Of a DNA stretch of 64,000 nucleotides, positions 12,701-62,405 are shown one piece after another (the first letter of the stretch is position 1; each line of letters begins with the position of its first letter). The translations under genes were made by a program, and so were the position numbers. Source of the DNA: Polytrichum commune (Eukaryota > Streptophyta > Polytrichopsida > Polytrichales > Polytrichaceae). The notes below the pieces were generated by a model. The model made no database searches and was not told where the DNA came from. It was given only the letters and a program-made list of their open reading frames with translations. The stretch lies in NCBI GenBank assembly GCA_950295325.1, contig OX485804.1:58766429-58830428 (forward strand). The letters run 5' to 3'.

Positions 12701-15700
12701 GCACTCAGAAAGGAGCTGAAGCTATTCATGAGGTATCTACTGTTCTTGCTGGATGTTTCTCCATTAGTTTTCATTGGGTTACTTTATCTGAACTGACTTA
12801 ACAAGTTCTGATTATTTTGTTCAGATTTTCTTGTCCCCCCTATGCCAGAATGTTCCCTTCCCTAGAAAGACATACTCTTAAGTGTTGATCATGTTATTGG
12901 TGAATTCTTATCACCATTAATCAAAATGGGTTCATGGTGGGTTGTCTGCAGGAATGTGTTAGGAGGGGCCTAAAGGTTGTGGTTGCGGGCATCCCCAAAA
13001 CGATTGACAACGATATTGATGTGAGCCTTCCTCTTTAAAAGCAGAATACATTATGGTGGAATCTACAAGCAGTGAATATATCTTAGCAATTTGAAGAGAT
13101 TCATCACCACAGTAGTGCTTTGTAGCAGCATTTGCATCCTGCAATCTTTCATCTAGTGGAATACCTAGATCAAGTTTTCTGGGCGTTTTCTGATCAATGC
13201 CATATGTCTCAACTGAAAGGTTTGGCAGGCTACAATTTATCGAAACAGTTTCTTTACATTGGCCTTGGCCTTCACCAAACACAATTTTATAAAGTGGCTC
13301 TATAGAGCACTCTACAGGGACAAGTCAACAAAATGATCATACATTTCATTGAATTAATTTTGTGTGTTGACAGATTATAGACAAGTCGTTTGGATTTGAC
13401 ACAGCAGTTGAGGAAGCTCAACGTGCAATCAATGCAGCCCATGTGGAAGCAGAGAGTGTCAACAATGGCATTGGGTTGGTGAAGCTTATGGGTCGCTATA
13501 GTGGTGAGTCATATTTCCTCGTCAGTTCTATGGCACAAATAGATTCACTTCTTTTTAAAAAAAAAATTTGGGTGCATATAAGATGTTTTGCACACTAAAT
13601 GATTGATTGATTTGTTGTTTAAGACTCCTTTGTTGGAGCTAATAAATGTGGCTTTTGAGCGCAGGGTACATTGCTATGCACGCTACTCTTGCAAGTCGTG
13701 ATGTGGTAAGTCCTTCGCTCAATCACTGATTTGGTGCTTCCAAGAGCTGTGTAGCTCTTTACAGTAGAATTGTAAATCTGGTATTGTGTGACTTCTTAGC
13801 ATTGACTTGTGTTTAATCCCTCAAGGGGCACTTTACAGTAGAGCTTGAGGGCCTGTGGCCAATGAAATCTAAAATCTCTCATTTGGTGGAAAACGTTGAG
13901 ACCATCCCACTTCACTTTGTACTAGCTTTTGAGATCCTAAGGGACCAAGGACCATGGCATGCAATGGACAATGTTCCATGGAGACTCTCTCAAAATCTCA
14001 CAACCCTCGATTCATTATAATTTATTGTGTACAAGGGTCCACATGAATAGGATGGTTATTAATTAACATGTGGTTGAGAGCTCGGTCATGTTTGTCTTTA
14101 CACTACACAAAATTCAACGTCAATTTTCCATAGTATGGCTTTCAGATGAGTTTCAAGGGTCCCCACAAGTTCATGGTCCATAGCATAAAGTGGCCCCAAG
14201 TGCAGAGAGGTCCACATAATCGCGGATAGGTGTTCACTTGAAAATCTCCTGGTGGTGAATGCAGGACCTATGCTTGATACCTGAAGTGCCATTTTATATG
14301 CACGGGCGTGGTGGAATCATTGAGTATGTACAGAGAAGGTTGAAGGAGAGTGGCCACATGGTCATTGTGGTTGCTGAGGGTGCTGGGCAGGAGTTGATAG
14401 CTGAGAGTTTGGAATCTCAAAACAAGCTCAGTGATGCATCTGGAAATAAGTTACTCCTTGATGTTGGGCTGTGGCTCTGTCAGAATTTGAAGGTAATCCA
14501 GTTCCAGAACTAATAATGTTTCATTAGCCTGTGTGCAGATGATTTATCTTGTAAAGGAGAAAAACAAATTAGAGTTATCTGTAAAGAGGTAGTGATGGTG
14601 CCTCTTTGAGGATTATATTTATTTATTTATTTTTAAAGAGCTTCTTACAGCGTCTTGTGTCGGAAGCCTAGTTTTGAAAGTTGGGTGAAACTCATTGGAC
14701 CTGCTCTTTCAATGCGGAAAACTTGATAGCATTTTAGGATGTAGAATAGGGTCTGCCCATGGGATCCGCCACCCTAAATCGTGGATTGGCCCTTTGCAAG
14801 GCTAGCTTGGCCCACCAATCCGAGAATGCCAAGCTAGAAAGCTGGTTTTTATTAGCCTGACCTCTCATTTAGCATGTAAATATAAGTGCGACTTTATGCA
14901 TAAGCTCTCAAACTTGTCTTCCAGCCAATTCGCCTAGAGTTTGATCCAGAGGCTGTACAGATAACTCGATTGTCTAGTACACATTTGTATTTTGAAAGGT
15001 TATTTCAACATTAGCCGACTAAGATTGGGAAGAGTAAACAATCGTGTCTTATTATGTTGACATAGACTCATACAATTGGTCTCCTGCAGGATCATTTTCT
15101 GAAGGAGTTCAAGGAGCCACTCAATCTGAAGTACATAGGTAGGCCGATTTTTATTGTCTTCAAGACATCCAATTTTTGCATAGATGTGAATATATCGAGA
15201 TGAAACTCCCAGTCACTAGATTGTTCTAAATTATTTCTGACATCAGTTGAACATTTGATTTGACAGATCCAACATACATGATCAGAGCAATTCCCAGTAA
15301 TGCATCTGACAACGTTTACTGCACACTACTTGCTCATAGTGCTATTCATGGAGCAATGGCTGGATATTGTGGTTTTACTGTTGGGCCTGTCAACAACAGG
15401 CATTGCTACATTCCCATCAAAGTAAGGCTGAAACTTTTATTCGGATTTTTCGTTTTGTTTTGTGCGGGCATATACCCCTGTTGAATACTTAAAAATTAAT
15501 TCGAAAAAAGAAAAAGTCCGACCAACCGGATTCGAACCAGTGACCTAAGGATCTCTACACCTCTACAGTCCTCCGCTCTACCAACTGAGCTATGGTCGGA
15601 TGGATGAAACTGGATAATCTGGCTTCCACCATACGTGATGATCAGTGCAATTAGGGTTAGGGTTTGTGGTTTAGGATTGAAATATTGGGATCCGAGGATG

Positions 15701-26181: not shown

Positions 26182-27440
26182 TAAATTCATCAAGCGAACG
26201 TTGCTCACTGTATTTCTATCTGCTTGTATAGCACAATTGTGTTTGAAAGGATTGGATAATTTGTTCTCCATAGGTTCCTGGATCATCTGCTTGGCAAGCA
26301 ACAAAAGAGAAGTGGTGTACTATCTTTTTTAACCCAAAATAGGGAGGGTATTCACTTCTTGATACCATAGATACATGTTGCAATGTTTTTTCTGATATTT
26401 ATCAAGTATTGTGACGTAGAGATGCACTTTTGTCAAAGCCAAGACAGCTGAAGAATGTGTGTACCTCTCCATGTAATGTGCTTTCGTTCACTTTTCCAAG
26501 TGGAGCGCGATTTCATTCATGAAAATTCTGATTTTGTAAAACTATTTCTGAATACTTTATGTTAGGGGTGAAAATTGAAATTCATGATACCACACTGCAT
26601 GAAGACCTCGTTCCTGACATTGAGTCAAATCAGGGTGCATCCATCAATCATTCGTATTGGTTTTGAGTGTAAAACTGGGAAACTCACTTGTGATTCATGG
26701 TTTGGAAGAGTGAGAAAACCCCCAAATCTAAAGAAGAAGTGCCTACTTCATTAACCCAATTCCGACAATCTTTTTTGTGGTCCAAAAGTGGGTTACCAGG
26801 TACTTTATAATGAATATCAATGATATGATTCTATGGATAAAAACCACAACTCATTGGTTGAGAGTGACATTAGAGTGGCAGAGTGACCATGGAGGTCGAG
26901 GTCAATCTAGTTGCACTACCAACTTGTACTTTTTACATGGATTTAAAATAGGACAGTATGGCGAGTTTGAGGGACCACACCTCCCCATTGAGCAAGCTTG
27001 CCTTTTTTTTGTTCTTAATTCACCTTGGCATTGGCGATTGGCCTTGCGTTTGTAATTTAAGGGGGAAAAAGAAAAAGAAAAAATAATGCCCGTACCTTGT
27101 ACCGGCATGAATGTGAGCCCGTTACCCAAATGCTAAACACGACGAGTCGTGTTGTAACATGAGGGGTTATGCCTCTTTTGGGAGGTGAGCTCTATTAGTT
27201 GATAGTTAATATTTAGTTCCCATTTCTAGGGAGGTGCAATGGTAGTTTGTTTATTGTCAAGTTTCCTTTTGTTGAGTATGAGGTAGGTTAGGTAATTAAT
27301 CGCAGTTTGGTGTATGTTTTGCATTAGTTTTTTGATGCTGGTCTTTGAGATGTTGAGTTCTTCTAATTTCTTGATGGATTGTTCGTGTATAGCCCCTCTT
27401 ACTCCTGCTGTGATAGTGATAAGGGGCTTCGTTTTCCAGC
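26182..27440. other. Intergenic, no gene supported
   Basis: Holds the HAD gene 3' region and AT-rich spacer. 26,870-26,910 'gtggcagagtgaccatggag' is a fragment of the Tourist-like MITE interior (compare 1,780 and 5,667). The low-coordinate (3') end of the LINE was not fixed; a purine-rich 'gggggaaaaagaaaaagaaa' lies near 27,060. Confidence 0.5.
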
Positions 27441-28189
27441 CTTTGTTTCGTATGGCATGAATTAAGGGGTCGTATTTGGCTTGTTTTTGTGTGATGGCTT
27501 GTTTGGGGAATCTGTCGTGGCAGTATGTGAATTCAATGAATTGTATTGTGTGTGTATGCGGGTAGGAGGGGTGTGGGGGTGTGGTTTGGGGCTCCTAGTA
27601 TACAGAGAATGTCTGGTCTTAGCCTGGCGTAGCATTGGCATTTTGTTTGTGTACATGTGCATTCTATTATCCAGTTAGGGATTGTTTGTTCTTGGCTATT
27701 ATTGTTGAGAGTGCCTGCGTTTGTTAATGTGTAGTATCTTGTGTGTTTGTTGGCTTGTAGTGTCTGAGTAATGAGGTGTACCGCCTTGTTGTGGCGGGCC
27801 ATTCTTAGGCCTTTCAGGTAAGGGTGTTCACACATTGACAGTAGGTGGGGCCACGTGTCTCTGTCATTTTTGTGGCATAATCTGCAATCGGGGTTCTGGA
27901 ATTTGAGAGGCTAGAAGATATTTTTTCTATGGTTACCCATGTATTGGGCGTAGCGGAATTTTAAGGTTTGAGTGATTTGGGCATCGGATATTTTATTGTT
28001 TTTCCAGAAATGGTTGGAGAGGTTTTGGTTTATTTGGTCGTTTGATAGCCATTTATCTATGTATGGGTATTTATTTTGGGCCGTCCTTACTTCTCGATAG
28101 TTGTGTGCTTTTGTTACAAATGTGTGCAAATTTCGAATTGCTCCGTCACGTGTGGCGGTTGGGTAGCTTGCTAGCCAATATGGTGTGGC

Positions 28190-28768
28190 GTGGGCTATAT
28201 GTATATGGGGTGTGGCGGTAGGTTTCTCTTTAAGTGCTCCTTCATTGGCGAGTGTGTCCGCTATTTCGTTCCCTATGATGCCCGTGTGGGTCCTTACTTT
28301 GTGTATGTGTATTAAGTGTGGTGTCCAATAAATTTGGTGTACTATGGCTGCTATGAGGAGTTTGTCTGGGTGATGGTGTTGTGAGGTTGGGTGTTGTATG
28401 TGGTTGCTGATTAAATATATGTTGTTAAGGCTATTTGTGAATATGTGTGTGTCTGTTTGAGTGGTTTATATGGTTTTGTTAGCGATGAGTATGGCATTCG
28501 ATTTTGCTCTAAGGATATTTTGGTATCCCGGTAATCTTTCGGCTATGTGTATATTTTTGTTGGGGCTATATACTCCAGATCCTGTGGTATCGCCCACTAT
28601 TTGGCCTTCTGAGTTTTTAGTTGGGGGGATGAATGACCCGTCTGTGTATATGCATTGTTGTGGATAGTATTTGTGATGTTGTTGGTGGTGGTATTTAGTT
28701 GGGAGGGTTATTTGGGGGATGGTTTTTGGTGGGGGGGGGGGGTGTTGTTTATGGTGGTATTTTTCCAT
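28190..28768 (-). pseudogene. LINE A RNase H domain
   Basis: The reading contains CIYTDGSFIPP (first catalytic Asp), RAKSNAILIA where the usual second catalytic Glu is Lys, TDTHIFTNSLN and the C-terminal HKVRTHTGIIGNEIADTLAN (HTG...GNE..D box). A frame interruption occurs near 28,470. RNase H downstream of RT removes RNA from the first-strand hybrid in the LINE clades that have it. Confidence 0.75.
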
Positions 28769-28769
28769 G

Positions 28770-29660
28770 TATTTAAGAATTTAACATGGTAGTTTGGTGC
28801 TGTGGGGTTAATGGGGAAAGTGTCTATGTGTGTGTCAGTGGTTAGTTCTAGTATTCTTGTGAGGTCTGGTGGGGTTTGTAAGTTTATTGTGGGGCTGCTT
28901 TGGTTATGTATGCATATTATCGATGTGAGTGATGGATCTACGTATTGATAATATTTTGGCCATTCTGGTGTACGGTTGTATTGTATAGTGTGTGGGGGGA
29001 TGGTTGTGAGGGTGTGGATGTCGCCCTTTGCGGTGAGTGTAATTTGTTGTGGGGTCCAATCATTGTGGTTAATTATGAGGATGGTGGCAGTTTTTGTGTC
29101 TTCTTTGGCTGCCATTCTGGCCCAATGGATGGCTTCCACGGTCGTGTTGTGATCTGTGGGGTATGCTAGGCCAATGCCTTTCCATTTGGAGGTTTGTGCT
29201 TGTCCCATGGAGCCAAATATTTTATCCAGGTTGTGGGGTGAGTGATATTGTATGAGTTGTGTGGGACATGTGAGCGGAGATGAGTAATACGAGTGTGTGA
29301 TTTTAAGAGATTCTATTAATGTTTTAATAATTGCCGGGTGTAGTGTGTGGTGCATGTTCTTGGGTTGTATGGTTTTTGGTTTTCAACTTTCTTTTAGGGA
29401 TGATAGTTATATATCTTTGTATGAGCCAAAGTATTTCTGTTTCAAAATTCTGGGGTGGGGGTTCAAGGAAGTTGGGTGGTTGTATGTGTTGGTGGTAGGA
29501 GAATTGATTCCATAGCCATTGTAGTCTTTCTATAGTAATGGTGGCCATGTAGTTTCCTCTTTGGTCATAAATGTTGGCATCCGAGTCTTGTATTTGGATA
29601 GTTGGTTGGTTTACTTGTATGTTTTTATCTGGGTTACATTCTTGTATGGATAGCTTCATG
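28770..29660 (-). pseudogene. PCIF1-like methyltransferase-resembling segment of LINE A
   Basis: Between RT and RNase H, two frames joined near 29,350 read as one domain. Its features are a helical LHPAIIKTLIESLKI, then YYSSPLTCPTQLIQYHSPH, DKIFGSMGQAQ, KWKGIGLAYPTDHNTTVEAI, HWARMAAKEDTKTATILIIN and IPPHTIQYNR. The order 'F/Y-x-SPL-x-C ... S-P ... D-x-x-FGS-x-G ... G-x-x-x-(N/Y)-P ... A-x-x-WA' is that of PCIF1/CAPAM-type Rossmann methyltransferases, where the catalytic motif is NPPF; here that site reads YPTD, so it is degraded. Assignment is by motif memory, not by a search. Confidence 0.55.
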
Positions 29661-30072
29661 TCGGTGTTTTGTAAGGGGGGGGGGGGTGTATAAACTTGTT
29701 GTCTTTTGATTGTATGTGGTTGAGGCAGCTAGCATATTTTTGGGTGGTATTTAGCTCGAGTTGTTTTGTGTGATATTGTGTGATGTGGAGTATATTGTGT
29801 TCTAAAATAATGTTGTCCGGGTGTATTAGCTCGTCTTCTTTTCGCCATTGCTGTACGTTCTCCTGTGGTAATTGCCATTGACATAGGTACATTTTGTTTA
29901 TCGCATGTGCGCCCCATTTATTTATTTTGGTGGTGGTTTTCTCCTTTGGTGTTGGAGGGGGAAATAGTGTTGATGCTTGTTAGAGAGCCTCCTTGATAGT
30001 TTTAGGTATATGTTTGTATGTGGATTGGATTTTTTTTGGTGTTAGTATGGCTTTAGTCTCCGAGTTTTGGAT

Positions 30073-31828
30073 TTATGTTAGCGTGGTGATGCCGTATATG
30101 TATAGTTTAGCGAGGTATTTTTGGGTTTGGGATTTGGAGAGGTCTGTAAGGTTGTTGTAATTAGGGTTGGTTTTCCAAATTGTTTCTAGTGGAGTTTTGT
30201 TAATGGGAAATGCTCGGGTTGCAGTGGTGACGTGTATTTCATATTGTCTTTCGAGGAGATAGAGTGTTCTAACGATGGGTGATCGTACACACGCTTGTTG
30301 TTTGAGTTTGGGGAGGTGGAGGGAGCCTCCATATTTGGCTGCTATGTGTTTGGCTAGTCCTTGGTAGATGGTGCCTAGTTGTCCAGGGTCATTAAGGGCT
30401 TGTATTAATTGTTGTCCTATACATCGTATGTAGTATGGGAGAAGTGAGGTTGCATTGATGCCAAAGTTTTCATGGGGGAGGTGTGTAAGAATATTGGTTG
30501 TGCTCTTGAGAATATTGCAGATTTCTTTGGTTAGTTTACCAATGATTTGGTCTAGTTTTCTAATGTCTGGTTTGGAGAATGAGACGGCATAGTAGGCATA
30601 TGCGATTCGAGGTTTAATAACAGTGTTTAGGATTTTAATTTTTTGTGTGAGGATGGCTGGTGAGTTGGTCGTTAGTTGACTTTGTTGTTTGATTTTTTTA
30701 ATGTAGTCTCTATTTGTAGGTTCCATTTGAGTGATGGGGTTAGGTATATACTTAGGTATGTATATGGTTCGTTTTGGATGAGGATGGGGAAGTTTTGGGA
30801 ATTGTATGTAATGTTTTGTGATTGGATATATGCTTTGAATGTGGTGGATTTGAATTTGAATTTGTTGGGACATCCCGTGATGACACATTTGGAGAGGTTG
30901 AGATCCATTTTGACCATTCCGCGTATTTGTGAAGTTTGGTTATTTGTGGTTGTATGTTTTGTATGTTATCTATGATAATTGCTAGGTCATTAGCATATGC
31001 TGTTGTGGTGCATGTGGAGGGGGATGTGTTGAAGTGGTATCCCATGTTATCTTTTTCTAGCCATCTTAGGAGGGGTTCTAGGAAAATAATAAATAAATTC
31101 GGGCTGAAGGTATCTCATTGTATTATTCCTCGACTTATTTCTATTGGGAGTGTTGTTCCAAAGTAACTACCGATGAAGGATGTGGTAGAGTTTTTATATA
31201 TATTTGCAACAGTTTTTACTGTGTCAGGGAGGTATCCGAGGTCTTCTATGATGGCTAGGAGTCTTACATGGTGTATGGAGCCAAAGACATTTATAAAGTC
31301 AATGTATGTTAGATATATGTTTTTTGTGGTGAGTCTCGCATTTTTCATAGTTGCTATGATTGTTTGGATTTGTCTTGATGTGTTGCGTTGTGGGCGGAAT
31401 CCTTCTTGGTTAAAGTGTAGTAGTCGATGTTGTTCCCCGTAGCTTGTGAGGAGTGTTGCTAGTGTATTAGTATATAATTTGTATATTGTATTGGCTAACG
31501 CAATTGGTTTATAGTTGGTCAGGCGTATCGGATTTTTTTTTTGTGGTAGAATGGTTTTACTATGTTTCCAATATTGTGGGATTTTCTTTTGTTTATAGTA
31601 ATGTTTAAAGAAGAGGAAGAGGAGGTATTGTCATTGAGTTGGTAAAATTTTGATTATGTCGTTGGGAATATTATCGGGCCCGGGGGCTTTGACTTTGGTT
31701 AGTCTTATAGTACAATTATCATAGATTTCTCTGGTGAATTGATTGTATATTTGTGCGGTCGGCTGACCTTTTCTTTCTAGAATGATACCTTGGTGTGTGT
31801 GCCAATGATAGTTATGTATCGCACACAT
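30073..31828 (-). pseudogene. LINE A reverse transcriptase domain, interrupted
   Basis: Pieces in at least three frames: 31,828-31,631 (KAPGPDNIPNDI), 31,348-31,115 (palm A TYIDF, then GIIQ followed by TGA), 31,045-30,752 (palm C AYANDLAII) and 30,917-30,073 (thumb, then a helical connection domain). The catalytic aspartate pair is changed to Asn-Asp. The product would not be active. Confidence 0.85.
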
Positions 31829-32304
31829 ACATGTACTAGGGTGGTCTGTAATGTCATCGCATATGGATGCTTGTCTTTGGAATGATATTTTTGGGTATGG
31901 TATATCTCTCTAGCTATGTCATTGGGTTTGGTGATGATGTAGCCTTGGGGTTTTTATAGGCAATCTAGCGAGTTGTTAGGTGTTGGGTTGAATATCTTTT
32001 TGTGGATTGTCTTGGGCTTGATATTTAGTAAGTTTCTATATTTTTTGATGGTTGCTTTGCAATTGAGCGTAATTTGTTTGGTGATGATTTTGTGGGCTTC
32101 GATTTTAGCATTTTTTCCGATGTTGGCCAATTCTGTTATCCATGTGTTCAGTTCTGTGGGGTGAGTAGGTATGGGTGAGATATTGGGAGTTTGGATGAGT
32201 CGTAAGGCTTTGATGTCTGGGTCATTATGGAGGTGTGTGTGGAGGTAGTGGCAAGCAACTTTTATGGCTTTTCGGGTTTTGTGGTATATTTTTAACTATT
32301 GTTT

Positions 32305-33168
32305 TTATTTCTTTTGTTGTGTTCTAGGAAGAAATCCTTCTTGGATTTTGGTCCTATTAGGTAGTGGTGGTGTAGGTTTTGACATGCAAGTTTGTTCTAT
32401 GCATAGGCTAAGAGATTTAGTGATTTCTTGTAATTTGTTTTGCATTTCCTCCCATTGTGTATCGGTGAGGTATTCTTTCTGGAGTAATTGTGTAGGGTTT
32501 TCTATGGCTAAGTTTTGTTTTTCAAGGAAAATTGTTTGTAGGCTTTGGAGATTGCTAGGGGGTATGGGGTATATGATTCTCGGGCTATTTATGGGATTTA
32601 TTGCTTCTTTGAGGACTATAGTGTTCGGGGCTAGTTGTAGTTGGACTGGGTAGTGGTCTGAGTTTTGGTTGAGGTTAGTTAGTATGTGACTTTGAAAGTT
32701 GTAGGTATTGAGGGTGTTGTAGTAGAAGCCATCTATATGGCTTGTTGATGTGTAGTTGTGGCCCCCTTGTCTTGTGAAAGCTATTGGGTTTGTAATTACT
32801 TTGAAGCCATTGTTTTGTATGAAGTGGGCCCATTCGAGGTCAGTTGTGGTGGGTGGGATTAATGTGCCATTGGTGGTTCTTCCTTTGAGTAGTATGTCTC
32901 GGTTGAAATCTTCTGCCAGTATGATTAGATGGCTAGGATATTGTGTTTTAAGAGTATGAATTTGGTTTTGGATTTCTATTATGAGATGTATGTCTTCTTG
33001 GTGTGTTGGCATATACATGTTTAGTATGAGTATTGGTGTGAGGGGTTTGTTGTTGATTAAAATGGCTTGGATGTATGATGATATTAAGCTAGGGATCGAT
33101 ATTTTCGTGATGTTTTCATTTGTGTATATTGACTTGGGTATCATGGCTAGTATGAGTGAGAGTTCCAC
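32305..33168 (-). pseudogene. LINE A endonuclease domain
   Basis: An APE-type endonuclease fragment of about 190 residues, followed by a linker towards the RT. Visible motifs are NMYMPTHQED, LIILAEDFNRD (canonical GDFN with Gly replaced by Glu), GGHNYTSTSHIDGFYY and QNSDHYPVQLQL (the catalytic SDH). In active LINEs this domain nicks the target DNA. The N-terminal strands with the first catalytic Asn and Glu are missing because of 5' truncation, so it cannot be functional. Confidence 0.85.
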
Positions 33169-42719: not shown

Positions 42720-42925
42720 TCTTGAAACAATCACAGAGGCCTGAGTCCCAGTTGTGATAGCAGCTATTGAACCTACAATCATGAATGGATGTGGCACAAA
42801 GTCCACTCTCATGGAAACACATGTCTTTCTGGTGTCCAACGTTCTTGCCATGTAGTGGTTACCACTCAAATTAAGTAGGTCTTTGATCGAGAAGAGTGAC
42901 CAGTACATTATAATTATTTCCCATA
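42720..42925. repeat. Dispersed repeat, copy 2, abutting the P450 gene
   Basis: Matches 200-440 ('attgaacctacaat', 'acacatgtctttctggtg', 'gagaagagtgaccagta'). It covers the upstream part of the open frame that precedes the P450. This argues that the true P450 start is 42,961 or later rather than the first ATG at 42,883. Confidence 0.5.
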
Positions 42926-42960
42926 CCTTAGAAGTGCATTTAAAGTTGCTGCAGCGGCCG

Positions 42961-45424
42961 ATGAATATGGGCCCCCATGATGCCGTATCGATGTTTTTGA
43001 GCGGCCAGTACTATGCAGGAGTTATTAACGGATGGAGTTATTTGCAGTTGTTGGTCACATTCGCTGTGGTTGCATTGCTCACATTCCTCTTCTACGGATT
43101 ACATCGTAACTCCCTCCAACTGAAGAATTTGAATCTGCCTCCAGGCCCCAAACCCCTGCCCATCATAGGAAGCCTCCACCAACTGGGTCCGGTCCCCCAT
43201 CGGACGGTCGCGGAGCTCACCCGAACTTATGGCCCCATCGTCTTCCTCAAGCTGGGCTCCTGGCCAGTGGTCATCAGCAGCGACCCCAAAATCATCACTG
43301 ACATCATGAAAGTGCAGGACCACGTGTTCTCGTCACGCCCCGACACCATTTGCGGGAAAACGCTGACGTACGAGATGCACGACTTCATCATGGCTCCCTA
43401 CGGTGACCATTGGCGGGCGATGCGCCGGATTTGCGTGCAGGAGCTCCTCTCGAACCGGAGCCTCGAAACCTTCGCGGCTACAAGGCAGGAGGAGGTTGTT
43501 CACTTGGTTCGAGCTGTGTGGGATCAGTCTCGGAGTAATTGCGATCGAGGCCAAAATAGTGTGGAAGTTGATGTCCGACAAAAAATTGAGAGCTTTGCGA
43601 TGAACGTGATGACCGACATGGTGTTGGGGAAGAAGTACTTCGGGACGCACCTCGCCGACCAGGATGAGAACAACGAGGTGCTGCGTCTCCTCATGGACAG
43701 CTTCCAGTTCTTCGGGGTGCTTAACATTGGCGACTTTATCAAATGGCTTGCACCCTTGGACTTGCAAGGATACAAGAGGAAGATGAAAAAGGTAAGCTCA
43801 TTGATCTGCCTGCATCATCTTGGTTTTTCTATGTGCATTACATCGCCTATTCAAATACCCTGGTCTGTCTACCAGGTTTTGTCGACTTGAAAATACCAGA
43901 TGTTTCCCTGGGCGGTACTAGAAGTTACTTGTGAGATAGACTAGAGAAGTCCACTTATTGGACTTAGCTTGACCCCATTTCCATACATGTGCGCTTGCAT
44001 TTCCATCTTTCCAGAGATTGTTTAAGAAACCCTCCAGGAGGAAATTGTGGTCCGTGTCGTATCCCATCATCTGATTCCTCTTCTCTTCAAGGTGCATTCA
44101 TGACCACAAACTCGAGTAGGTGGATGACTCGCTGCTCCCGCGGCTCCTTAATTGTGTAGTCCATGGCAACAGGGTTCGGAGAGGAAACCCATCCTTCCTT
44201 CTCCACCAACTGTTTCCTTGGGTTGCCGTCTCATGAAACCTTCTAACCTCATCATGACCACCTCCCTACAAGTCTCAATTGTATGCACCGCCCATCTAGA
44301 GCACCCAAATCTAGAGGCCCATAAGAAACTAAACTCGGATATGCCGATGCGATTGTAGTCTTGACATTGACTTATGTATATTGAGTTGTTGGTGATTCAG
44401 ATGCATGACCAGCTGGATCAAAAATTGCAATTCATTATTGAGGAACATCGGGAAGCCAGGGAACACCCGACAAAGAACAGGTCGGATTTGACTAGTGAGC
44501 TGGACCAGCGGAAGCGTACACGCGACTTTGTGGATGTGTTATTGGATCTTTAGGCAGACGAAAATACGAAGGAGAAAATTGAAGACATCACAATAAAGGC
44601 GCTCATTCTGGTGAGAATTGATAAGCCTTGTTTACTGCTTCCCTGCTTTCATGCTTTTGTAGTCCAAGGCTTTGCATGCATATGATGATCTCGACGTGGT
44701 CAAATGGCCATAATTGTGTTATTATTCATTCTAATGGGTATCATACACATCAATCGACTCATGGTGGTGGCATGTCCTCTAGAATATGATGTGGTCAGGA
44801 TTGGACATGCCCGTGAACATCAGTGAGTGGGCCATGGCGGAGTTGGTGTGCCACCCTGAAATTCAACAAAAGCTACAAGAGGCACTCAACAACGTAGTTG
44901 GCAATAAGCGTGCAGTAACGGAATCGGACATCCCCAAATTGCCATACCTCTGGTGTGTGATCAAAGAGACATTCCGTATGCATCCCGTGGGGCCGTTTGG
45001 GGTCCCGCGGATGAGCATAGTGGCAACCAAGGTCGCAGGCTATGACATTCCCGCTGGCACGCAGGTGATGGTGAGCAACACCGAGTTGGGGATGAACCTG
45101 TCCATCTGGCCCGATCCAGAGTTATTCAAGCCAGAGAGGTGGCAAGAAGAACCCAACATGGCCATCTTGTTGCAAGACCCGGAGCTTCGCATTAACCCCT
45201 TTGGCATCGGTCGGCGCAGCTGCCCGGGTGCTGGCCTAGGCACCCATTTGGTCATGTTGTGCGTCGCCAACCTTGTCCATGCCTTCAAATGGACCCCGGC
45301 TCACGGTTGGCGGTGCCAAGATGTTGACATGCGCATCAATTTCAAAGGCCTCATGCCCATGCTTACCACTCTCAAGCCCATTGCGACCGCTCGCATGCAC
45401 GAGCCCCCTCTGCTCCCACCTTGA
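42961..45424 (+). pseudogene. A-type cytochrome P450, CYP79-like, with one in-frame stop
   Basis: A heme monooxygenase of the plant A-type group, ER-anchored by the N-terminal segment YLQLLVTFAVVALLTFLFYG. Exons 42961-43791, 44401-44610 and 44783-45424 give 560 codons, a normal P450 length. Hinge: LNLPPGPKPLPIIGS. I helix: MMWSGLDMPVNISEWAMAEL. K helix: KETFR. PERF: FKPERW. Heme loop: PFGIGRRSCPGAGLG. The I helix lacks the usual A/G-G-x-D/E-T-T and instead has LDxPxNxxEWA, closest to the VDNPSN-x-x-EWA of CYP79 (amino acid to aldoxime). The heme-loop lead-in DPELRINPFGIGRR also fits CYP79. Codon 44551-44553 is TAG where neighbours read DFVDVLLDL-stop-ADEN; one C-to-T change from CAG would explain it. 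All other motifs are intact, so loss is recent or this is an allele. Family assignment is inference. Confidence 0.85.
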
Positions 45425-56500: not shown

Positions 56501-58441
56501 TCCTTCAACTATTTCATGTTTGTCCTTCAACCAATGCTTATAAATTCATATTCTGCGCCCTAATAGTATGTCCTTGTCATGGAGGTTCTATGTTCTTCGT
56601 TCATTTTCCGTGAAGATGTAGATATTGGTTCAGCTATAGTTGGCGACCTCTACAAAAAGAGCAGGTGTTTAGAGTTGCGCGTTCAGGAGGAGCAAGAAGG
56701 ACTCATCAATTTGAAAAGGATGCAACTGCAGCTTTTGTTTTGTGGGTTGGGTCTAGAGGAGCCGACTGATGACATTGTACCAGATGTAGCTTATGTTCGG
56801 TCCTTAATAGGAGAGCCACCTGCATTACCTTCAAGTGGATTTGGACTTGTGGCTGAAGTACAAGCCGCCATAAGTTTGGATAGTCTGGATAGTATCCCTA
56901 TGCCATCGCAACGGTCGCTTGAAGGACTTGAAGGAATCAGTACTCAGGACTTGGCTTTGTCTCAATTCAATAGTACTCAATGCTCACCAAGCAGGATTGT
57001 TTTGCCGCCACCTGAATTGTCCCAGCACGAGAGTCTTTGCAACATGCATTCGAAGAACCCACGCTCGCCAAGGACACTTTCCGAAGGACCAGGTCCGTGG
57101 TTCCCGAGAGCTTTGTCAGTGGACAACAACAAAGATGGTGTAGAGTCCAAGGGTGACGAGGGGGCAGCCACCAAGACTGAAGTTGCTTTGGAGGCTGTAG
57201 AACATGAAGTTGGAACGCATGACATCGCAAATGTGCGTCCAACTGCTTTGGACTTGACTCTGGATGATGTATTGGCAACAACAACTGTCAAGCCTGATGG
57301 ACGGTAAGTGTTTTCATTGTTGTCATTCGTTGTGCACTCATGTCATTCGCTGCGCAATTATGTCATTCGCTGAGTACTTATGTCATTCTCTGCGCACTTA
57401 TGTCATTCGCTACGCAATTATGTCATTCGTTGCGCACTTATGTCATTTCAGATGGATTTAGGGGTTAATCCATTCACTCCTGTAATGCAGGTTGGAACAA
57501 CTTGTGAATACGATCTGCACAGAATCAGGTGGGACCATGGTCAACAGTTTCGACTTTTTGTACCGCGGTGACTATTTGAGTTTTAATCTGGGTGGCCGAT
57601 GTGTGGCCCCTAACAAAAACATATGGAGAATTATCCAACCATATGATGGATTGGATAAGAGCATGGCTTAATCCACAGATTGAGGACGTAAAAACCTATG
57701 TATGCAGTCCTTATTTGGTTGGTCTGCTTAAATCGCATGTCCGTAACAAGAAAGAGAGTGTAGAGGTCTATAAAGACTTTTTGCATGTCAAGTACACCGC
57801 ACTTCCAGGTTCGGACGTAAGAACACTGATAGTGCCTTATACATGTGGTAAGCACTGGAGTGTATATGTGCTAGGGGATAGGGGTTTTTTTCATACTGAC
57901 TCCATGCCAGGGTGTGGTCTCCACTCCGATGTGACTATTCGCACATCGTTTGCCAAGATGTGGACCGTAAGGAGTGGCAGTGTGCAGGCACAGTCTTCAC
58001 ATGTCCATAGATGGATAGAACCATCTGTCCCCGAGCAAAACTCGGGTTGGGCATGTGGTTTTTATGTCTTGAGGAACATCATGGAGTTTGTCGAAGCTCT
58101 GAGACATAGACCACGTTCATTGGGTGAGGTTAGTGATGACACTACACAATTAGGTGTTTAGATGATACTGAATGACATCAATTTTATTTTTAATTTGATG
58201 TTCTTCACGGCTAAGATTGATGAGGGGTGGTTTGATGCAGGAATTTAAGCTGAATTACAGTAGAAGCTATGCACTACAGACAAGGAACATCGTTTCGGAA
58301 GCGCTAGTGGCTGTCATTCAGGCTGGTTTTAGAGAGGAGACTGCATGGAACGTGAAGGTTGTAATGGCCCAAGAAGATGACCCGTCTACGAGTGGAAAAC
58401 AACCGAGTAGACGAAGCTGTAGAATGAAGAAGAAGTTCTAG
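53555..58441 (+). pseudogene. Transposon-borne Ulp1/SENP-like cysteine protease (7 exons, two lesions)
   Basis: Reconstructed exons: 53555-53722, 54255-54819, 54981-55348, 55510-56346, about 56585-57303, 57491-58128, 58241-58441, roughly 1,165 codons. N-terminal half: EALGLGFHALEDDDMIKW and a small cysteine-rich stretch (CIHC...C). The middle is Pro/Ser/Arg-rich and low-complexity, followed by a large helical domain (exon 4) I do not recognise. C-terminal Ulp1 (C48) protease: His in GKHWSVYV (57,853), Asp in HTDSM (57,898), Gln in PEQNSGWACG (58,036) and Cys of WACG (58,054), all intact; this fold cleaves SUMO-like proteins. Exon 7 ends in a basic tail RRSCRMKKKF. Lesions: TAA at 55259-55261 inside otherwise coding sequence (one C-to-T change from CAA), and one extra base at 57,560-57,592 needed to join GDYLSFNLG to VADVWPLTK. 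It converges with the transposase gene; Ulp1 genes are known passengers of plant MULEs. Confidence 0.75.
57306..57452 (+). repeat. 20-bp tandem repeat, six copies, in Ulp1-gene intron 5
   Basis: The unit 'tcattcgctgcgcaattatg' and variants (cactcatg, agtacttatg, ctacgcaattatg) repeat six times head to tail with exact 20-bp spacing, from about 57,323. It lies between exons 5 and 6. Confidence 0.9.
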
Positions 58442-59138: not shown

Positions 59139-61308
59139 TCACAACGACATCTGCAAGAAACTTTGATGCCGTTTGAGAGAATTGTCGCCCATCCTTTCAG
59201 GAAAAGAACTCGTCGTGGGAGATATTTCCATTTTGGCGACCCCCCTCGCAATCAGCTGGGTTTGCTTACCTCGTATATGCCTCAAGTCTGCAAGTAAGTA
59301 ATCTTGGAGCGCTGGATACTCGTCGGTTGTCCTCGTCAAGTCAATGTATATGTCATGCGCCTTTGTTTTAGGCCCAGACTGTGATAGCCGCTCTTGTGAT
59401 AGGTCGATTAGATTTTTGGCGTCTCCCAATGGTATATTGGTAATCATGTCATTAGAATTGTGAGAGTCAATGACAATTGGGTCTGTAGGCCCACCTGAGA
59501 TGTGTCCTTCATCGTCGCGAATATGTAATTTGTTGTCATGCAGGTCTGCGTCGAGAGGAATTGGCTGCTGAGTTGGCCTTGCGAAGCACTGCGACAAGGG
59601 AGTTGCACGGTCAATGCCATGTTTGGTGCCTGCTTCACGAAAAATGACGCCATCCTCAACATCCGGGTGCAGCATTTTGAAGACCTTCACAGTATGTTTG
59701 CATATCATGCCCTCTTTTGCGATGGGACAATCACATTGGGCCCACTCGGAGTCTAGAGAATGAATGGTCCAGACTTTGGGTTGGTTGTTAATGGATCCAA
59801 CATAAGCAACATCTTCATCCAGGCAAATGAGGACGTTTGTATCAGGTATGGCATTGGCCCTGATTATTGCTGTTACAACAATACCTTCTTGTTTTGTGTT
59901 GCGTATGAATCCAAACGCCTTGCACTGCACACCATACCAGTAGTGTGTAAGAACATCTCCCATTAGGTGATAGATTAGCCAATCTATGCGCCTTCCCACA
60001 AACCTCTCCTTTGAAGAATTGAGAATATTTTTCAAATTGGAGTGGTATGATTCAATGGCAGCGTTTGTGTTTTGGCCAGCATGTGGAATGCGTCGTGCTG
60101 CAGCACACCACATTGTTGTTTTGGATCTCCAAGTGTCATTCATGTACTTCATGAATGCTACAGCCCGCGGTCTGGTGTTCGTTATTGTATCAAGTTGTCG
60201 GACAGCCCAATCGACTGGGTCTTCATCAACCTTGTACCCCCTACCATACATTATGTCTCCAAGCATTTGAAGAACAGTGGCCCTCTCAGCAACTGCAGAT
60301 ATCTTCTTCACTGCATTCTCAGCCCAAGACTTGCGGACGTGCCATAGACACAAAATTTTTTTGGCCTCCGGCCATATGATGCTGAACAAGAACAACAGTA
60401 GTTTAAAACAACAGGTTCGTATAATTGTGCATGAAAGACATATATGGGACAATGAATATCAAAGAAAGTGAGGCAAGACCATGAATACCTCAAAGTATTG
60501 ATTTCTGCCTGGGCATTGTCGACAACGATCGAAGAAGGTGCCCAATCTCGCTTGAGTGTGTGAACTCTATTTTGAAGTGCTTCAAGAACAGGGTGCAAAT
60601 CTTGTTCGCGAGTGCGGGATATGACAAAGAATGCCACAGGTATGCCATTTCTCCACTCATCAAATACAATGATTGTGTACAGCGGATATTGGAATACGAC
60701 AATGTGTGGATTATATAAACTAGATGGTTTGCAATGACTACTGCCAATTTTGAATATACAAAGTACTGAATGAATAACCTTGAAGGACACGGAATTGGAA
60801 GTATTAGAACCATGAAGAACACTGAATGACATGAAAAATCAAAGGACACTGAGATATGGCTTACCCTAGTTTGGCTTGTCCCAAATGTAGAATCAATAGA
60901 GAAGGCACTATTGTGTCCAAATTTCACCATCATCTCCAACTGCCACCCAGATTGGACGCCAAGAGTGAAAGGGGAGTCATTTTGCACTTGTGAATTAATG
61001 TCCAACAAGGAATGCTCTTGATAATAGAACACATTTTCAGGGTTTTCCATAACCCACATTCGCACGCTTATAGGGTCGGACGGGTGTTTTTCCCAAAGCT
61101 CCTCCGCTCGCTTTCGACAAATGTTTCTCACATCAACCGGCAACAAGAATGTATCGCAGGTGACAACACCATTAGAAAGGGCCAACTCTCGTACTTCCTT
61201 TGTGTGTTGTTGCATGATCTGAGCAGGAGAAAGTCCAAACGCATGCATTTGAGCTATTTTCTGCTTCAATTCTTCTGAAAGTCCAGCGCCTAGTGCATAC
61301 CTAGTCCC

Positions 61309-62405
61309 CAGGGTTGTCTATCCCGCCGTTATGACGGTGTCGTGTCGTGACGGACCCCTCCGTCACGACACAATAGGGTCCACGTAGGGTCAACCTAGGG
61401 GGAAGCTAGTAGGGTGGGTAAAATACTTACCTTCTTGCCAAGGTGGTGTCCTATGTGGCAGAAAAAGCCGACGTGGACGTGGATATGCCTAGCGCCAGGT
61501 AAACCATTTTGCCATTATGTTTATCATTCTGTTAAAATCAAAGCAGTAAAATATGACTAAGGAGGGTGTGGGGCGAACGGGGGACGAGGATGGGGCGGAC
61601 GGGGGCGGGAACGGGGGCGGGAACGGGGGCGGGAACGGGGGCGGGAACGGGGGCGGGAACGGGGGCGGGAACGGGGGCGGGAACGGAGCGGACGGGGGAG
61701 GGAACGGAGCGGACGGGGGAGGGAACGGAGCGGACGGGGGAGGGAACGGAGCGGACGGGGGAGGGAACGGGGCGGACGGGGGAGGGAACGGAGCGGACGG
61801 GGGAGGGAACGGAGCGGACGGGGGAGGGAACGGAGCGGACGGGGGAGGGAACGGAGCGGACGGGGGAGGGAACGGAGCGGACGGGGGAGGGAACGGGGGG
61901 CGGGAATGGGGCGGACGGGTCGGGAGCAAATTTTTTTTTTTTTTTTCCGGACAGGGGGAGAACGGGGGCGGACGGGTCGGGAACAAGTTCCCCCCCCCCC
62001 CCCCCCCCGGACGGGGGTTGGGAACGGGGGCGGACGGGGAGGGAACAAGTTTTTTTTTTTTTTTTTTTTTCCCGGACGGGGGTTGGGAACGGGGGCGGAC
62101 GGGGGAGGGAACAGGGGCGGACGGGGGGGGGGGGGAACGGGAGCGGACGGGGGAGGGAACGGGGCGGACGGGCGCTAGTAATTTTTTCCCCACTTTACCT
62201 CTACTTTGCTGACATGTCATCACACGTGGACATCTTACATCCTACATGTCCGAAATGGGGTAATGTAATTACACACAAAATTTGGTAAAATTCAAGTCCG
62301 TCAGGATAAAGACAGCATCCGGCATAATGTCGTGACGGATACGTGTCGTGACGGCACGACATTATGCCGAGATTAGCCTCCGTCACGACACAATAGACAA
62401 CCCTG
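61309..62405. mobile_element. Non-autonomous hAT element inside the transposase exon
   Basis: Terminal inverted repeats CAGGGTTGTCTAT (61309-61321) and ATAGACAACCCTG (ending 62405). The 8-bp target duplication CTAGTCCC is identical on both sides (61301-61308 and 62406-62413). CAGGG ends with 8-bp duplications are diagnostic of hAT. Subterminal copies of 'gtcgtgacgg' and 'ccgtcacgacacaatag' occur near both ends, in both orientations, typical of hAT transposase-binding sites. There is no transposase. The interior is a G-rich tandem array with T and C runs. Confidence 0.95.
61590..62175 (+). repeat. G-rich minisatellite inside the hAT element
   Basis: Arrays of a 12-bp unit (cgggggcgggaa) then a 21-bp unit ('cggagcggacgggggaggga' plus a), followed by irregular copies separated by T runs of 18-22 and a C run of about 18. 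The dense G4-5 runs give high G-quadruplex potential on the plus strand. The long open frames on both strands arise because both unit lengths are multiples of three; they are not genes. Confidence 0.93.

Follow-up and report, generated by a model that had tools for sequence, protein, structure and literature searches.

A PCIF1-like methyltransferase domain without the NPPF tetrad between reverse transcriptase and RNase H in a LINE family of Polytrichum commune

Why does a LINE retrotransposon carry a relative of a cap adenosine methyltransferase between its reverse transcriptase (RT) and its RNase H, and can that domain still methylate? The question is raised by a stretch of 64,000 nucleotides from Polytrichum commune (contig OX485804.1, positions 58,766,429 to 58,830,428), here referred to as the window. 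A sequence-only reading had recognised on its minus strand the motif order of the N6-adenosine methyltransferase PCIF1 (CAPAM) inside a single ORF2 relic, and had proposed a LINE family with an active adenine methyltransferase, serving the element in its own host, of which this one copy had a degraded catalytic site. The place and the kinship of the domain were borne out by our analysis while the activity was not.

Motif reading recovered SSPLTC, HSPHN, DKIFGSMG, GIGLAYPTD and AIHWARMAA on the minus strand in the order known from PCIF1, and APE-type endonuclease, RT and RNase H lie in order on the same strand as parts of one ORF2 relic (Table 1); RT together with an APE-type endonuclease is the criterion by which the element is classed as a LINE. 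When the two frames of the domain were joined by reading through one frame break (P0001), PF12237 was matched with an E-value of 6e-8 and 32.9 bits, above the curated cut-off of 31.1, while the single frame at 28711-29382 reached 26.1 bits (E 7.4e-6), under that cut-off. Despite its name, 'PCIF1_WW', PF12237 represents a CAPAM-like methyltransferase (PMC7641849; this and the other papers cited by PMC number were available to us in excerpts). The LINE ORF2 contains a class I methyltransferase domain like that of PCIF1, placed after RT and before RNase H.

Table 1. Parts of the LINE copy in the window (positions counted from the first nucleotide of the window).
Feature	Position	Strand	Basis or remark
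Whole LINE copy, 5'-truncated (~33154)	27067..33154	-	blastn against sibling loci L003, L007 and L009
APE-type endonuclease (Exo_endo_phos_2), partial	32644..33033	-	Pfam E 6.2e-4, under cut-off; sibling L016 over cut-off
Reverse transcriptase, frames broken	30680..31900	-	RVT_1 match 31175-31540, E 1.1e-10, over cut-off
YANDL at the YADD position of RT	30983-30997	-	motif reading
Conserved LINE-specific stretch ahead of the PCIF1-like core, two frames	29611..29930	-	sibling alignment A1
YLCQW	29875-29889	-	in the LINE-specific stretch 29611..29930
ECNP	29630-29641	-	in the LINE-specific stretch 29611..29930
PCIF1/CAPAM-like methyltransferase domain	~28790..29610	-	frame broken once, near 29382; Pfam hit 29191-29458
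SSPLTC, counterpart of PCIF1 ASPLNC	29266..29283	-	PDB profile alignment and motif reading
FGSMG, counterpart of PCIF1 FGSRG	29203..29217	-	PDB profile alignment and motif reading
YPTD at the place of PCIF1 catalytic NPPF	29152..29163	-	family-wide replacement
AIHWARMAA	29107-29133	-	motif reading
RNase H, one frame break	28235..28650	-	Pfam E 3e-5, just under cut-off
TDGSF of RNase H	28631-28645	-	motif reading
C-terminal zinc motif and restriction-like-endonuclease-like end	27229..27910	-	motif conservation in alignment A3; weak R2 match, E 1.3
RHNKAV	27779-27796	-	C-terminal end of the LINE
RPDIL	27605-27619	-	C-terminal end of the LINE
EFTY, in another frame than RPDIL	27523-27534	-	C-terminal end of the LINE

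The copy in the window is decayed, its coding sequence being interrupted by stops and frame shifts. Reading of the flanks placed its 3' end at about 27067, with a pyrimidine-rich tail, and no target-site duplication was seen by eye in them. The 3' end (minus strand, about 27040-27230, with the structured part at 27065..27200) folds well ahead of the T/C-rich tail (z -3.12), and when seven copies were compared 8 of the 34 predicted pairs showed two-sided, pair-keeping changes in at least one copy; a promoter and terminator scan of this end found nothing. The coding strand is A/C-rich, with a strong composition bias. Elsewhere the window holds a tRNA gene (15517-15599, minus; Rfam RF00005, 61 bits), a plant-type cytochrome P450 in two pieces, recognised by eye from its motifs (42856-45421, plus), a long repeat-like stretch with many frames open on both strands (61541-62209) and frames which by eye resemble a transposase of MULE type, having a SWIM-like zinc motif, as well as a Ulp1-like protease (59142-61317, minus, together with 57580-58158, plus).

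The relationship to PCIF1 extends to the siblings of this copy. All 19 sibling domains of alignment A1 matched PF12237 and no other Pfam family (E up to 0.01); WW and helical domains were thus not found by Pfam in these 19 segments, and the LINE-specific stretch upstream of the core gave no family match of its own in them. When the genome of Polytrichum commune (408 Mb, 64 contigs) was searched with PF12237, 150 places were scored from 697 first-look candidates, all of them over the cut-off and some with open frames of up to 2,924 aa. The same family had no match in 14 control genomes, a weak control of which the one named member is a bacterium. Searches with the DNA of the domain stretch and with the RT scored 40 of 499 and 77 of 2,499 first-look candidates, respectively.

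A profile of the 19 siblings run against 177,635 distinct PDB sequences gave two matches at E up to 1, both of them PCIF1. The match to 6irx has E 6.8e-4 for the whole sequence and 0.0037 for its best stretch, and it ends ahead of the catalytic motif. The match to 6irv (E 0.065, best stretch 0.21) is the sole PDB alignment reaching that motif; it places EANPPF against yahPhn, with one gap, of a single residue, after FGSRG and ahead of the motif, and an ungapped course from there. Chain position 389 of 6irv is the N of NPPF, and when this is set as N553, F479 lands on F and P494 on P, as the loop limits of PCIF1 require (PMC10544176), while the place of Glu563, a cap contact of PCIF1 (PMC11550742), falls by the same residue count on A and not on Glu. 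Homology spans the stretch before [QK]RY, ASPLNC, D..FGS.G and the sequence up to the NPPF position. The PDB match begins inside the methyltransferase part, and a divergent helical domain might be present.

To follow the catalytic motif, 81 partly overlapping loci were read (L011 overlaps L016 and L015 overlaps L020; L001 is the window copy). YPTD in the window copy is not private decay, a possibility ruled out by the siblings, which carry the same change: 79 of the 81 loci have [HY]P, and the replacement is family-wide. NPP[FYW] was present in none of them, and by the test set in the sequence-only reading, a conserved NPP(F/Y) in the siblings, the idea of an active adenine N6-methyltransferase family fails; an active NPPF enzyme is ruled out among these loci. 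The other refuting condition of that reading, a lack of any profile hit to a methyltransferase, did not arise, as PF12237 is matched. One motif search could read the tetrad in 73 loci, giving HPHN (45), HPHT (10), YPTD (6), HPPN (3), HPTD, HPYN and HPHS (2 each) and YPTH, HPNN and HPHP (1 each). Of the remaining eight, six carry HPHN or HPHT; L080, decayed and interrupted by a stop, has NPHM, while L081 gave no match and holds no such domain. Sequence was read at 68 of the 150 PF12237 places, the other 82 entering as scored rows; 60 of the 68 were fetched at 1.25 kb and chosen mostly by long open frames, a sample that leans to intact copies.

The pattern WxGxGYA[HNDY]P extended this to the whole genome, with 428 matches against 1 in the backward control. 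In 427 of them the variable place is H or Y, the single N belongs to L080 and D does not occur; the matches listed, which are the first 100, are all on C1. A looser pattern, WxGxGxA[ND]P, gave 6 matches against 4 in the control, and only L080 among the six has GYA. Codon usage was compared in 74 rows, where the two glycines and the proline are each encoded by four codons, the alanine by three (with G in one row) and the H of the tetrad by CAC and CAT, a synonymous variety at kept residues that is expected under selection on the protein. The first residue is H or Y and the second P in every one of these rows, while the last is N (51), T (10), D (9), S (2), H (1) or P (1) and never F, Y or W. 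By reasoning, drift towards A and C does not explain the change on its own, because both AAC (Asn) and CAC (His) consist entirely of A and C.

In a tree built from 69 domain rows, 66 of them different, with SH-aLRT as its only measure of support, the window copy groups with L003, L004, L006 and L007 at a support of 100 and the other 64 rows lie outside; L010 is long-branched. Four members of this group, the window copy among them, have YPTD, and L007 has HPTD. On this quick tree the first residue of the tetrad changes once and the whole tetrad at least ten times.

Relatives with long frames show the domain order of the LINE protein. The longest, L017, is one frame of 2,924 aa with the order N-terminal part, 2A-like NPGP (residue 581), APE (SDH 1045), RT (YADD 1601), PCIF1-like domain (FGSLG 2251, HPHN 2269), RNase H (TDGSF 2441) and a zinc and PD-(D/E)xK-like end (RPDIL 2790). 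Its Pfam matches are RVT_1 (1.1e-29), PCIF1_WW (3.7e-11) and RNase_H (8e-13), families whose cut-offs are exceeded in both L016 and L017, and L016 passes the cut-off for Exo_endo_phos_2 as well (5.5e-7); the first 1,033 residues of L017 had no Pfam match. The matches of the window copy and those of L019 both stop short of the 5' part of the LINE. Upstream of the long frame, in L017:1-400, another frame is seemingly open; by eye it is coiled-coil-like and may be a separate ORF1. L017 and L019 are 99.58% identical across 7,631 alignment columns, which suggests recent movement of the family. The 'own host' of the sequence-only reading need not be sought elsewhere, since the family is abundant in the same genome and has near-identical copies there.

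Five loci (L003, L007, L016, L017 and L019) carry the 2A-like NPGP ahead of the ORF2 part. GDVEPNPGP (L003) and GDIETNPGP (L016) fit the published core motif (D/G/C/N)(V/I)ExNPGP (PMC12846837), from which GDIQLNPGP (L007) and GDIKPNPGP (L017 and L019) depart. At the other end of the protein CxxC...H...C, RHNKAV and [R/K]PD...EFTY...K..KY are invariant in the four aligned rows. The best PDB match of the sibling RTs is to R2 RTs (1.6e-33), and the only PDB match of the C-terminus is also to R2, at a weak E of 1.3; in its motifs the C-terminus is like that of R2-type elements, which have a zinc knuckle and a PD-(D/E)xK end, and we take this as a lead and not as proof.

Selection was measured by Nei-Gojobori on L017 and L018, both with long open frames. 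In 250 codons of the PCIF1-like core dN was 0.058, dS 0.456 and dN/dS 0.128. For the same pair dN/dS was 0.132 in most of APE, 0.113 in the end of APE with the linker, 0.060 in RT, 0.096 in the post-RT part, 0.051 in the stretch upstream of the core, 0.059 in RNase H and 0.078 in the C-terminus. The core is under purifying selection, about half as strict as that on RT and RNase H, as judged from one pair of long-frame copies; L017 against L016 gave dS above 1.4 or infinite, saturated or nearly so. In alignment A1 the segment from SYFSSP to the tetrad has 15 of 50 positions invariant, compared with 57 of 376 overall (hypergeometric p 0.003) and 32 of 221 in the remaining core (Fisher p 0.013), p values that are generous because the segment was picked once the alignment had been seen. 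The domain is conserved and selected, NPPF is not: the tetrad is lost throughout the copies read, and selection preserves the fold together with the pocket side around the tetrad.

In human PCIF1 the substitutions N553A and F556G lower activity (PMC11550742), and both residues are considered important for it (PMC11550742, PMC10544176). N6-methylation by the LINE domain is unlikely because both places are changed. In Drosophila NPPF has become NPPH, which according to the authors could explain the absence of m6Am (PMC9479742). Honey bees lack m6Am despite NPPY, itself an unlikely cause (PMC9479742), and whether an animal has m6Am therefore cannot be told from the motif alone. The reading that we prefer, with a probability of roughly one half, is that the domain would be a PCIF1-derived pseudo-methyltransferase that grips RNA, plausibly the cap, on behalf of the LINE RNP. 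Such a domain, descended from the cap-adenosine N6-methyltransferase fold, would presumably make neither m6A nor m6Am any longer; its inherited pocket may keep an RNA, plausibly the element's own mRNA by its capped 5' end, beside the RT, and this could help template choice or 5'-end completion in target-primed reverse transcription. Holding of RNA or cap is proposed because it is the simplest function that needs both fold and pocket in a protein which chooses and copies its own mRNA. A more specific version, a captured cap methyltransferase turned cap reader that binds the element's capped 5' end and favours full-length insertions, is speculative and in our view unlikely. To our knowledge no LINE domain has a cap-reading role that favours 5'-complete insertions.

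Several observations weigh against a grip on RNA or cap. In PCIF1 the m7G is likely placed between the helical and methyltransferase domains, with cap contacts at Arg239 and Arg269 of the helical domain and at Glu563 (PMC11550742); a counterpart of that helical domain was not detected in the LINE, and by count the place of Glu563 is not Glu. The SAM-side motifs are conserved, which might reflect continued use of SAM. Also counting against the preferred reading are the modest PDB E-values, a dN/dS in the core some twofold higher than in RT and RNase H, and the single pair that bears the selection argument.

The domain might instead still be a SAM-dependent methyltransferase whose altered motif IV (HPH[N/T] or [H/Y]PTD) serves another atom or substrate, for instance element RNA, cDNA or a protein; we hold this to be rather unlikely. 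It would account well for FSSP, D, FGSxG and GxGxA, which we take to be the motifs lining the SAM side and which are nearly unchanged in the most constrained segment, and for a new tetrad that is itself conserved, [HY]P being found in all 74 rows. Methyltransferases are moreover carried by some LINE and DIRS elements (PMC5890265). It fits poorly with the replacement of both activity residues of PCIF1 (N553 and F556), the last place never being F, Y or W, and with a tetrad that differs between two subfamilies, unlike a strict catalytic site. If the domain were purely a structural spacer between RT and RNase H, with its fold kept and nothing bound, a low dN/dS would also be expected, from selection on fold residues alone; the clustering of invariant residues in the former active-site segment, although that segment was chosen afterwards, speaks against a spacer, which we judge unlikely.

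That the domain is a dead passenger on its way to loss is highly improbable. The lost tetrad, the many decayed copies and the roughly doubled dN/dS of the core relative to RT and RNase H would agree with such a fate, which is contradicted by the dN/dS of 0.128 in long open frames, by the presence of the domain in L003, L016, L017 and L018 and by the near-identical copies. Chance resemblance to PCIF1 in an A/C-rich coding strand, for which the strongly biased composition might be cited, is ruled out for practical purposes by the PF12237, PDB and backward-pattern controls: 150 of 150 scored places and 19 of 19 siblings match the family, the PDB matches are to PCIF1 only, and 428 motif matches stand against the one in the backward control. 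The pseudo-methyltransferase that holds RNA is weighed mainly against a methyltransferase of altered specificity and a spacer.

A host PCIF1 gene was sought with the exact codon pattern FEANPPF, which had no match across the genome, and with NPPFxEE, which had 13 matches against 1 in the control; neither outcome shows that the host gene is absent, because introns may split the motif. A near-palindromic stretch at the C-terminus of the LINE, CTCCTCCATAAAAGGAGGATT, spells NPPFMEE on the opposite strand, and 12 of the 13 NPPFxEE matches (L085, L086, L088 and nine others) bear the letters of CTCCTCCATAAAAGGAGGATT or close variants. The two that were read are antisense to C-terminal codons of the LINE in this palindromic stretch and were rejected as host PCIF1, as was L087, which has no PCIF1-like context. 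Pattern searches for relatives gave 67 stretches in viral_contigs and 40 in genome_contigs, none of which was confirmed.

Compared with PCIF1/CAPAM itself (PF12237; 6irx, 6irv), the LINE domain lacks NPPF and is embedded in a LINE polyprotein, and counterparts of the WW and helical domains were not found in it by Pfam or by the PDB profile search. Drosophila PCIF1, reportedly called catalytic-dead in the title of a 2023 paper by Franco et al., differs in being a host gene with a change confined to the last tetrad residue. It is like the LINE domain in having a changed tetrad (NPPF to NPPH) in a maintained PCIF1 protein (PMC9479742).

Among retrotransposons, the domain content (APE, RNase H, a PD-(D/E)xK-like end and an RT nearest to R2 in PDB) makes the family resemble the Dualen group. 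Non-LTR retrotransposons bearing 2A sequences are also known, a 2013 paper by Odon being reportedly devoted to them by its title, and they share with the present family a 2A-like NPGP before the ORF2 part, which is here predicted from sequence. Dualen/RandI LINEs carry APE and RLE as well as RNase H, and the excerpt available mentions no PCIF1-like domain for Dualen (PMC4640811). Methyltransferases are found in SymbioLINE (DNMT), in DIRS elements (Dnmt3 or Dam) and in charophyte Gypsy elements (Dnmt3, KnitGypsy-Dnmt3), with the Dnmt domains of such retrotransposons reported to be under purifying selection (PMC5890265). SymbioLINE-Dnmt differs, as far as the excerpt goes, in having its DNMT in an ORF that precedes the one for RT, and the enzyme family is unrelated to PCIF1. 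Transposon-encoded DNA methylases are described, in the part of the source at hand, as absent from land plants such as tracheophytes (PMC6338049). Among the papers listed by our searches of a literature that mostly excluded subscription papers, none was found to report a retrotransposon with a PCIF1-like domain; methyltransferase-carrying retrotransposons are already known, and within that literature the PCIF1-like domain is the new part.

The presence of a catalytically altered cap methyltransferase, kept under selection, in the RT-RNase H part of a LINE suggests that such elements can draw on RNA-modifying enzymes of the host for use as binding modules. With hundreds of copies in several subfamilies, the family in Polytrichum commune is natural material for the study of the PCIF1 fold without NPPF.
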